The translations under genes and the position numbers were made by a program. Shown one piece after another: positions 15,843 to 19,076 of a stretch of DNA of 64,000 bases. Each line of letters opens with the position of its first letter. Positions within the stretch are counted from its first letter, which is position 1. The notes under the pieces are model-generated. The model was not told the origin of the DNA and searched no databases. It worked only from the letters and a program-made list of their open reading frames with translations. The DNA is from Roseiflexus sp. RS-1 (GTDB lineage Bacteria > Chloroflexota > Chloroflexia > Chloroflexales > Roseiflexaceae): NCBI RefSeq assembly GCF_000016665.1, contig NC_009523.1, positions 4,525,501-4,589,500 of the forward strand. Reading direction: 5' to 3'.

Positions 15843-16241
15843 ATGCGACTCGAACACATTGCTTTGAATGTTGCCGATCCAGACGCCATGGCGCGCTGGT
15901 ATACGTCTCATCTGGGGATGCAGATCGTGCGTCATATTCCGACCCCCAACGCCACCTATTTCCTGGCAGACTCGGCGCGCATGAGCGTGATCGAGATCTA
16001 TCATAATCCTGCCGCGCCTGTGCCCGACTACGCCGCCTTCTCGCCGCTGGCGCTGCACCTGGCGTTCAGCACCAGCGATATGGAAGCCGATATTGCCCGT
16101 CTGGTCGCCGCAGGCGCGACGCACGTCGCACCCATTGATGTAACGCCTGCTGGAGATCGGCTCACGTTTCTGCGTGATCCGTGGCAGATCGCGATCCAGC
16201 TTGCGCAACGGAAGACGCCGCTCTTGCAACCAGCGTCCTGA
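15843..16241 (+). CDS. VOC-family (glyoxalase/bleomycin-resistance) protein
   Basis: The 132-residue protein has two beta-alpha-beta-beta-beta modules: MRLEHIALNVADPDAMARWYTSHLGM, with the metal-ligand His5, and LALHLAFSTSDMEADIARLVAAG, ending in DRLTFLRDPWQIAIQLAQR. It carries the paired metal ligands expected in this superfamily (His in the first strand of each module and an acidic residue in VIEIY). It could be a glyoxalase, a ring-cleaving dioxygenase or a resistance protein; the substrate cannot be told. The start at 15843 has an AAAGGAGTG ribosome-binding site, and a promoter lies directly upstream. It is monocistronic, followed by repeats and an insertion element. Confidence 0.85.
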   Translation: MRLEHIALNVADPDAMARWYTSHLGMQIVRHIPTPNATYFLADSARMSVIEIYHNPAAPVPDYAAFSPLALHLAFSTSDMEADIARLVAAGATHVAPIDVTPAGDRLTFLRDPWQIAIQLAQRKTPLLQPAS

Positions 16242-16522
16242 CAGTCACACCGGTAACGATTGTCGATGCCACGACGACACCTGCACAAACGGCAACGTCT
16301 GCCACCAACCGAGGGTGGGTGCGAGCATGAGTTGTCAGGCGGCCGTCCGCCGCCCCGCCCGATGCTCATGGAGATTGAAAATTATAGCAGTTCTCACAAA
16401 GATTGGTCTTGTTGGGCAGGGTTGCACCCGCCATCGAAAGCAGACGCCTTGTGTGCCATCCCTTCGCGTGCTCCGCGTCTCTGTGCATCAGACCGGCTCA
16501 CGCGGAGTAACTGTGTTGCTTG

Positions 16523-17485
16523 TCAAGGGGCGCTCGTATGCACAGCCGGATCCCAGGGCTTTTGCTGACGCAATATTGCGCCGAGAATAGTCAGCAGCTT
16601 GCGCATCGCAGCGACGATGGCGACCTTGCGCGGCTTGCCAGCTTGACACAGGCGCTGATAGAAGGCGCGCCTGACCAGACGGCGCCGCGTGGCCGCCAGG
16701 GTCGCCATGTACAACACGCTGCGCACATCCCTCCTGCCGCCGGAGATATGCCGGGGTTTGTGCTGTGCGCCGCTCTGATTGGCATACGGCGCAACGCCCA
16801 CAACGGCCGCCGCTTCCGTGCGCTTGATGGTCCCCAGTTCGGGCAGGCGGAGCAGCAGGTTCAGTGCGGTGATCGCGCCGATGCCGGGCACGCTGTCGCG
16901 CAGCTCCCGTTTCCGGCGCACCTCGTCGGTGCGCTCCGCCTCGTTGTCGCGTTCCTGCTCAAGCGCACGGATCTCCTGATCCAGCCAATCAATATGCTTC
17001 TGGATGCCCGGGCGGAGGTTCGGCGCGGCAGCCGTCAACCGATTGATCTCAGCCGTCCGCATCTGAATCACCTGCTCCCGCCGGACCAGCAGGTCGCGCA
17101 AGGATGCGCGCTGCTCGTCCGTCGCTTGGTGGTGCGGCGGGCGCACCCGTTCGGCAAAGCGGGCGAGCAACCGGGCATCCAGGCGGTCGGTCTTCGCCTG
17201 GCGTCCTTCCGCGTGCGCCAGGGCGCGCACGCGGCGTGGCTGCACCCGCGCCGTCGGCACGCCAGCCTGGAGCAGTTGGGCGAACACCATGCGCTCCAGC
17301 CCGCCGGTCGCCTCCAGCACAATCAGGGTCGGCTGCAGGCGCTGGAGTCGCGTGACCAGGAGCTGGACACCTTCGTCGGTATACGGTATCGTCTCGAGTG
17401 GCGCGTGCGGGTCGGCGCCAAACGCCACATCCAGCGTCTGTTTGGAGACATCAATGCCGATAAAGAGCGACTCACGGGAAGCCAT
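16523..17485 (-). CDS. IS110-family transposase
   Basis: The 320-residue protein has the two IS110 domains. The N-terminal RuvC-like DEDD domain shows FIGIDVSKQTLDVAFG (Asp12), TLIVLEATGGLE (Glu) and KTDRLDARLLARF (the D..D pair). After a coiled region, the C-terminal transposase_20 domain contains LRDSVPGIGAITALNLL and ISGGRRDVRSVLYMATLAA, including the serine used in recombination. The length and all motifs are intact, so it may be active. IS110 enzymes use a non-coding bridge RNA encoded beside the gene; the non-coding stretch 17486-17851 is the likely place. Its CDS covers most of the mobile element at 16382-17866. Confidence 0.93.
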   Translation of the reverse strand: MASRESLFIGIDVSKQTLDVAFGADPHAPLETIPYTDEGVQLLVTRLQRLQPTLIVLEATGGLERMVFAQLLQAGVPTARVQPRRVRALAHAEGRQAKTDRLDARLLARFAERVRPPHHQATDEQRASLRDLLVRREQVIQMRTAEINRLTAAAPNLRPGIQKHIDWLDQEIRALEQERDNEAERTDEVRRKRELRDSVPGIGAITALNLLLRLPELGTIKRTEAAAVVGVAPYANQSGAQHKPRHISGGRRDVRSVLYMATLAATRRRLVRRAFYQRLCQAGKPRKVAIVAAMRKLLTILGAILRQQKPWDPAVHTSAP

Positions 17486-17763
17486 ACACAGAACCTCCTG
17501 AGGAAAACGGCGCCAGCCTTGCTAGCATATGCGGGTTTGAGGGCCCAGATAACTGTTCGGCTTGGTCGCGTTGAAGGACACGGCTACCCAACACTCCGCG
17601 GCGATCTCGTGAACCTGGCGCAGAACGGTATACCGTGTCCCGTTAGATTATACTAGGCGCAGAGGCGCGGAGAGCGCGCGCAGGTCTTGCAAGGTCTGTC
17701 AGACGGGGCTGCACCCGTCGCTGGAAACGAGCGCTTCACGCGCCGCCTCGAGGCGGCGCCGTG

Positions 17764-17787
17764 GGGGGCACGGCATGCCGTGCCCCC
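17764..17787. repeat. 24-bp perfect GC-rich palindrome
   Basis: The sequence is perfectly self-complementary around GGCATGCC. A 28-bp palindrome with the same core (GCACGGCATGCCGTGC) occurs at 48171-48198. Here it lies in the non-coding 5' side of the IS110 transposase, within the 796-bp non-coding stretch 17486-18281. That stretch also contains two similar segments that begin CCCGTCGCTGGAA. Confidence 0.6.
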
Positions 17788-17866
17788 ACACCCGTCGCTG
17801 GAAGTGGGCGCCTCGCGCAACGCGGCAGACCCGGACGAGGGTCAACGTATTTGAGAACTGCTATAA

Positions 17867-17964
17867 ATCCGCTATACTGCGCTAGCCGTGGGGCTGAAGC
17901 CCTCGGCTAACCAGGGCAAAGCCCGCCTGCGCGGGCTATACCGGATTATTTATTCAAAGACCAT
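17867..17964 (-). repeat. R1 repeat, larger part of a copy split by the 1.5-kb element
   Basis: It matches R1 from its TATAGCGG end through both internal hairpins to the ATGGTCTTTGAATAAATAAT end (read on the minus strand). The missing 14 bp of the other end, ATGGAGATTGAAAA, lie at 16368-16381, across the inserted element. The outer flanks can pair: GCCCGACGCTT on one side and GAGCATCGGGC on the other. Confidence 0.8.
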
Positions 17965-18130
17965 AAGCGTCGGGCTGCGCGCACGAAGGGCGCTGCCGCA
18001 CCCGCGCTGGCGCGTGCGGATGCTCCGCGCCAGCCCCGCGCCAGCGGGGCTTCGTGCGCGCAGCGCGGGCGTTCACGTCCGCGCGGGCGTTGCGCGCCCT
18101 CGTGCATGCGCATGCTGCGGAACCAACCGC

Positions 18131-18235
18131 GCCGCCCCGCCCGACACTGAACCGGCGGGCCGGGCGAACGACGGGCGCCGCCCCGCCCGACACTGAACCG
18201 GCGGGCTGGGCGAACGACGGGCGCCGCCCCGCCCG
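18131..18235. repeat. 46-bp GC-rich tandem repeat, about 2.3 copies
   Basis: Units start at 18131, 18177 and 18223 (the last partial) with GCCGCCCCGCCCGACACTGA; the first two differ at one position. The array lies just upstream of the HEPN-CBS gene. A related GCCGCCCCGCCCGA stretch occurs near 16350. The surrounding DNA (17970-18280) is very GC-rich and otherwise holds no gene that I can support. Confidence 0.7.
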
Positions 18236-18281
18236 CACGCCGGGGGATACGCATGCGGAGCGCTCACCTTCTTGTCAATGC

Positions 18282-19076
18282 ATGACTGCTCCCACCGAGG
18301 GTTTTGCGCGCCGGGCGCTGGCGTTGCGTGCCATGCTGTGCGACGACAGCGCCAGCGCAGGCGATCAGGCGCTCAAATTGCTCGAAGAGTATCTCGAACG
18401 CCTGACGTACCGCTACGGCTATGTCGGCGATGGAAGCCTGGGGCGCTATGCAAACTTTCTCCGCGGACGAGACGCGCTCGATGAAGACCTTATCGAGCGC
18501 ATCGACGCTTATACGCAGGTGCGCAACTGTCTGGCGCATTCCTGCGGGTTGCAGACCTCTCTCGATCTGGTTGCCGGGCTGATCGAGTTCATCGAGTTCC
18601 TCCTCAAGCGCAGCGCTCCAACCGCCGAAGAGTTGATGACGCGCGCCGTTCGCACTATCGATCAGACGGAGTCGCTGGCGCATGACCTGCTGATTCGCAG
18701 CGGCTATGGACGGTTGCCGGTGTTGAGCGATGATCGCCGGATTGTCGGATTGTTGACGGAGCGCGATCTTGTGGCGACACAGGCGCTTGCTGAGCGGGCG
18801 AATCGGCGTTTCGCCGATCTGACGGTTGCCGATGTATTGCCGCCAGACGCTCTTGATCGCGTGGTGTGCATTGCGCCAGACACGCCGCGTGAGGATGTGG
18901 CGGAAGCGTTGACGCGCAGCGGGGTGATTGCGTGTCCGGTCACGCCGGGCGGTTTGCCCGATAAAGCGCCGCCCGGCATCATCACCCATGCAGATGTGCT
19001 CTATCGGATGCAGGGATGCTCGCGGGGAAGGGAACCCAGGAGTCGCGTTCGGCGTCGTAGCCGTACCGCAGCGTAA
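18282..19076 (+). CDS. HEPN-like domain fused to a CBS pair (candidate nucleotide-gated RNase)
   Basis: The 264-residue protein has an all-helical N-terminal domain (about residues 5-112) with R81-NCLA-H86 (RNCLAH), the Rx4H motif with a polar residue after Arg that marks HEPN RNases. Residues 113-165 form one CBS domain (AEELMTRAVRTIDQTESLAHD to IVGLLTERDLV) and 178-242 a second (FADLTVADVLPPDALDRVVCI to IITHADVL). CBS pairs bind AMP, ATP, SAM or cyclic dinucleotides, so ligand binding could control the RNase-like domain. No partner antitoxin gene is adjacent. The start is uncertain, since no good ribosome-binding site precedes 18282 and the upstream frame runs into repeats. The basic C-terminal tail overlaps the convergent gene by 95 bp. 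The CBS call is firm; the HEPN call rests on motif and predicted helices. Confidence 0.72.
   Translation: MTAPTEGFARRALALRAMLCDDSASAGDQALKLLEEYLERLTYRYGYVGDGSLGRYANFLRGRDALDEDLIERIDAYTQVRNCLAHSCGLQTSLDLVAGLIEFIEFLLKRSAPTAEELMTRAVRTIDQTESLAHDLLIRSGYGRLPVLSDDRRIVGLLTERDLVATQALAERANRRFADLTVADVLPPDALDRVVCIAPDTPREDVAEALTRSGVIACPVTPGGLPDKAPPGIITHADVLYRMQGCSRGREPRSRVRRRSRTAA

Follow-up and report, generated by a model that had tools for sequence, protein, structure and literature searches.

Fusions of an HEPN domain to a CBS pair had already been reported in 2013, the HEPN-CBS and HEPN-CBS-HD examples including Pelobacter propionicus gi 118580987 and Nostoc alr3009 (PMC3710099). Compared by description only, they have the same domain pair as the family analysed here and are predicted to be active, and the same logic has been proposed for them, in which nucleotide sensing controls RNA stability. 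The HEPN-CBS-HD fusions have an HD domain, whereas the present family has none. DS-11 (NF053863) is a single-protein CBS/HEPN anti-phage system tested in 2026, and its defence is abolished by mutating HEPN residues or the adenine-contacting tyrosine of the CBS part (PMC13092281). Like the present family, DS-11 has a CBS pair and an HEPN R-N-x3-H motif in one protein with no partner gene, and gating of the HEPN nuclease by an adenine ligand is proposed for both. However, DS-11 begins with the CBS pair and has a C-terminal HEPN domain, while here HEPN comes first and CBS last. Csm6, the CARF-HEPN RNase of type III CRISPR, also has a ligand-binding domain controlling a fused HEPN RNase, but the sensor is CARF instead of a CBS pair and the domain order is opposite to that found here; no CRISPR link was seen in the neighbourhoods examined. 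HepT, the toxin of the type VII HEPN/MNT systems, shares the HEPN fold and the Rx4HxY pattern with the Chloroflexales homologues. Unlike HepT, the present family has a fused CBS pair and no MNT partner that could be found, and the Tyr is missing in the copy described below and in distant homologues.

An open ORF of Roseiflexus sp. RS-1 (18282-19076, forward strand) encodes a 264-residue protein of this kind. All positions without a locus name refer to the window, the 64,000-nucleotide stretch that was analysed, from a genome of one contig (5.80 Mb). A sequence-only reading of the window had taken this exact architecture to be without a characterised example, a view that is corrected by the fusions in PMC3710099 and by DS-11 in PMC13092281, though the order of DS-11 is reversed. 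With HEPN-CBS fusions on record since 2013, this architecture counts as a variant of an established type. I consider it probable, at about 60%, that the intact Chloroflexota family is a single-gene ligand-gated HEPN ribonuclease and that the window copy is its decaying remnant. The family would be a subfamily of its own, with HEPN first and CBS second, that works like DS-11 and Csm6.

HEPN domain and CBS pair

18303..18617, + strand: HEPN domain, residues 8-112 (AlphaFold2 pLDDT 82.7, pTM 0.75; VIA-align Z 12.2 to 2hsb, 11.6 to 5yep_C)
18522..18539, + strand: RNCLAH (Rx4H) motif, residues 81-86 (sequence, alignment of 11 sequences)
18627..19010, + strand: CBS pair, residues 116-243, with GIITHAD in CBS2, Thr and Asp of which are invariant in homologues (PF00571, alignment)

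The only Pfam match in the window protein is the CBS pair (PF00571, two stretches, E 8.3e-14), as had been proposed for the C-terminal half. Each structure model was built from five sequences. The full-length model has a pTM of only 0.51, so that the arrangement of the domains is uncertain, and because it gave only CBS structures among the matches listed, the HEPN domain was searched separately. The AlphaFold2 model of the N-terminal domain has five helices, and RNCLAH ends the helix of residues 68-86. Its top VIA-align matches are HEPN structures (Z 12.2 to 9), although a Z of such size in helical bundles is not decisive by itself. The best is 2hsb (rmsd 2.4, 114 aligned), followed by HepT 5yep and Csm6′, whose HEPN domain aligns at the same Z of 11.6, and then by AbiV, LsoA, and Las1. 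HEPN-fold proteins occupy all of the Foldseek ranks 1-29, with weak E-values (best 0.039). The predicted fold is therefore that of HEPN, as the sequence-only reading had expected.

Eleven sequences from two Chloroflexota groups were aligned; the homologue in L033 was excluded due to an in-frame stop. While identity among the eleven falls to 34-36%, R81, N82, L84, A85, H86, G89, L90, and the helix-2 residue E35 are invariant. RNCLAH is thus no chance match, and the earlier identification of an HEPN Rx4H motif with a polar residue after Arg is upheld by R81, N82, and H86 in every sequence. The Tyr of Rx4HxY is less constant: Chloroflexales homologues have RNCLAH(S/T)Y, the window copy has Cys (Y88C), and the G160 group has Ser. 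The published HEPN active site combines an Rx4-6H ending helix 3, where a polar residue follows Arg, with an acidic helix-2 residue (PMC3710099), and this description fits the fold, R81/N82/H86, and E35. No family model matched the window copy's own N-terminal domain. Single members gave weak matches to HepT-like (0.0009), NTase_sub_bind (0.004), and Hypoth_Ymh (0.027), and one homologue matched the HepT_toxin model weakly (E 0.0055), while a search of PDB sequences with the HEPN-domain profile gave chance matches only. With fold and motif taken together, the prediction of an N-terminal HEPN domain is firm.

In the 11 aligned sequences, the CBS2 TxxD motif is invariant and CBS1 always keeps its Asp, but several homologues have another residue in place of the CBS1 Thr of TxxD. 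When the L008 homologue was modelled, its structure matched CBS pairs at a Z of about 15, among them structures crystallised with AMP, ADP, ATP, Ap4A, and c-di-AMP. The ligand of the CBS pair may be an adenine nucleotide or a related signal. CBS pairs can also bind non-adenine ligands or serve as dimer contacts.

The fusion itself is borne out, and an HEPN fold with a conserved Rx4H and a fused CBS pair makes a ligand-gated RNase plausible. In the proposed mechanism, the N-terminal HEPN domain would dimerise, and the dimer would cut RNA without metal via R81/N82/H86. The HEPN activity would be held or released by the C-terminal CBS pair, to which an adenine nucleotide or a related signal would bind. 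Since the CBS pair would gate HEPN itself, a separate antitoxin would not be needed. RNase activity of the family is predicted from alignment and models, and an intact motif in an HEPN fold is no proof of it. I also infer the direction of gating and the biological role, which may be stress shut-down or phage defence.

Homologues and gene neighbourhoods

Homologues were matched in 11 of 82 Chloroflexales genomes and, elsewhere in Chloroflexota, in three genomes of one family (G160, G517, and G568). HEPN is first and CBS is last in all of the aligned sequences. The intact lineages have omega values of 0.13-0.35 (pairs with measurable dS), and on these substitution ratios they are under purifying selection. 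The closest named relatives of the window protein come from Roseiflexus metagenome-assembled genomes. An intact copy is absent from all six Roseiflexus genomes. G009 carries the same gene as a pseudogene. In G013, a metagenome-assembled genome, it is frameshifted; the shift may stem from faulty assembly and was not counted as proof of decay. Three other Roseiflexus genomes gave no match. The G046 homologue adjoining carA (L033 2400-3262) has an in-frame TGA and a frame shift near the end; it may be decaying too, or misassembled. Weak matches in G671 and G512 were rejected as members of the family, being different proteins without CBS domains. No homologues were found in phage records, plasmid records, or viral contigs. 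The distribution is patchy, but it is chromosomal with some synteny, a pattern that does not point to a mobile toxin-antitoxin system.

Three Oscillochloris genomes have carA, the HEPN-CBS gene, and a type II-like DNA methylase gene in a row on one strand:

L039 7753-10733, same strand: carA, HEPN-CBS, methylase
L040 8689-11689, same strand: carA, HEPN-CBS, methylase
L041 8253-11274, same strand: carA, HEPN-CBS, methylase

In L033 as well, carA lies upstream of the HEPN-CBS gene. In three Roseiflexaceae relatives, a GT4 glycosyltransferase gene is divergent to the HEPN-CBS gene, and the G160, G517, and G568 homologues have other neighbours. Several homologue contigs are short, so these neighbourhoods are incomplete.

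Same-strand carA immediately upstream in four Chloroflexaceae loci altogether suggests another role for the protein, that of a CBS nucleotide sensor which controls a neighbour, for instance CarA (carbamoyl-phosphate synthase), and cuts no RNA, with HEPN as a mere dimerisation or RNA-binding module. Many CBS proteins are indeed sensors that bind partner enzymes. However, R, N, and H of Rx4H are invariant at 34-36% identity, which a mere scaffold would have no need of, and the carA link is missing in Roseiflexaceae and in the G160 group. I consider a pure sensor unlikely.

State of the window copy

16260..16316, + strand: 5′ end of the gene, cut off from the rest; its codons (L)SMPRRHLHKRQRLPPTEG correspond to the N-termini of the uninterrupted relatives L034 and L038 (blastn)
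16317..18290, no strand: composite insert inside the gene, 1974 bases (flanking near-identical 12-mers)
16523..17485, − strand: IS110-family transposase within the insert (Pfam PF01548 E 2.3e-24, PF02371 E 3e-14)
17864..17968, no strand: repeat of about 105 bp within the insert (dozens of genome copies, 91-100% identity)
18683..18684, + strand: site at which two codons of the first CBS1 helix are deleted, SLAH--DLLI vs SLAHVRDLMI (comparison with relatives)
19011..19076, + strand: read-through tail, 21 extra residues (CAG in place of the relatives' stop)

The flanks of the insert were compared with the relatives one by one. The N-termini of the uninterrupted relatives are MSMPRRRTHKPQRLPPTEGFARR (L034) and MPRRQPQKRHRLPPVEGFARR (L038), and in blastn the DNA upstream of the insert matches both loci (16266-16316 vs L034, 80%; 15843-16306 vs L038, 79%). 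The continuation that matches the relatives, PTEGFARR, starts at 18291. The insert is flanked by the 12-mers CCAACCGAGGGT (16305-16316) and CCCACCGAGGGT (18291-18302), which are identical at 11 of 12 positions. Elsewhere in the genome, the IS110 element recurs in at least 39 near-full copies. In G009, too, the pseudogene of this gene contains a stretch related to the 105-bp repeat. Since the original start lies at 16260-16316 and the continuation at 18291, the ATG at 18282 belongs to the insert, and no ribosome-binding site is evident before it. At the other end, the window has CAG (19011-19013) after YRM, where the relatives stop, and its own stop codon is at 19074-19076.

The CBS half was compared with that of G009, its nearest relative, and 12 nonsynonymous and 4 synonymous changes were found. 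The probability of this split is 0.0002 at an omega of 0.15 and 0.035 at 0.35, and it is 0.58 if the sequence is neutral. The CBS half of the window copy evolves near-neutrally relative to G009, and the protein of the gene next to the window copy is 97.7% identical to that of G009. The two loci differ in a further respect: the HEPN half is 84% identical (L037 17817-18151), whereas the CBS half and the downstream DNA are 95.6% identical (L037 15345-17722). This identity step suggests a recombination boundary near 18625.

Could the ORF still work, if the insert provided ATG 18282 as a new start, perhaps with a promoter as well, and the shortened CBS pair were functional? The HEPN domain is complete and in frame, the lost N-terminal residues form a variable tail that is also missing in Oscillochloris homologues, and the HEPN half has an omega of 0.11 in comparison with G013, though the break may be younger than most of that distance. 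On the other hand, two codons of CBS1 and the stop are lost, Y88C and similar changes fall on otherwise conserved sites, and the ratio of nonsynonymous to synonymous changes against G009 and the lack of an evident ribosome-binding site point the same way, as do the broken G009 gene and the frameshifted G013 gene. A working gene at this position is quite improbable. The sequence-only reading was right that 18282-19076 is open, but the ORF is not an intact gene, as it starts within the insert, reads through its end, and has lost two CBS1 codons. Its tacit assumption of a working copy is not supported, in view of the severed start, the lost stop, and the near-neutral CBS half. The window copy has neither the original start, nor the original stop, nor a frame under purifying selection, and looks like a decaying remnant.

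Growth control, defence, and relation to DS-11

A different role may be considered for the intact family. It may be a vertically inherited chromosomal HEPN RNase whose CBS pair reads the nucleotide pool and which trims RNA for growth control, tied to carbamoyl-phosphate and pyrimidine supply through carA and serving neither defence nor a toxin-antitoxin system; I give this only an outside chance. It is very improbable that the protein is the HEPN toxin of an HEPN/MNT (type VII) pair silenced by AMPylation of the Rx4HxY Tyr: Chloroflexales homologues show that pattern, HepT is among the best folds, and one homologue touches the HepT_toxin model, but no MNT-type antitoxin motif was present on either strand of the examined neighbourhoods, some of them on short contigs, at the Tyr position the window has Cys and the G160 group has Ser, and a CBS pair is fused instead.

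As for the preferred reading of a ligand-gated RNase, its setting was assessed as well. The repeats and the insertion element beside the ORF had been taken as a setting common for defence genes. They are what broke the window copy, and in the neighbourhoods examined the intact homologues lie outside defence islands. A defence-island reading was rejected, as there was no PADLOC match and the neighbours are carA, GT4 glycosyltransferase, amidase, and DUF309 genes. The methylase gene adjoining the HEPN-CBS gene in the three Oscillochloris genomes weakly keeps a link with defence open. The window copy itself is of little weight, save as a warning that an adjacent insertion element can point to gene disruption instead of a defence island.

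CBS-gated HEPN RNases are barely characterised, and DS-11 is the one tested system found in the literature. With its inverse domain order, a second subfamily would make it convenient to test whether HEPN is generally gated by CBS and which nucleotide is read. Its members are small, and intact ones exist in named Oscillochloris genomes.

The family was rejected as DS-11 itself. Besides the reversed order, the window protein matches NF053863 in the CBS part only (E 0.051; 12.7 bits against a cut-off of 260), an intact homologue reaches 16.4 bits, also below the cut-off, and the HEPN-to-HEPN profile match between DS-11 and the family is weak (28% probability). Other Chloroflexales have DS-11-like proteins in which CBS precedes a C-terminal HEPN (L042 1501-2235, L043, and L045). 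Their HEPN motifs are RNIVFH, RNDLAH, and RNALAH, and all three fall under the DS-11 cut-off. Two of the three are open frames of 595-632 residues with extra C-terminal sequence.
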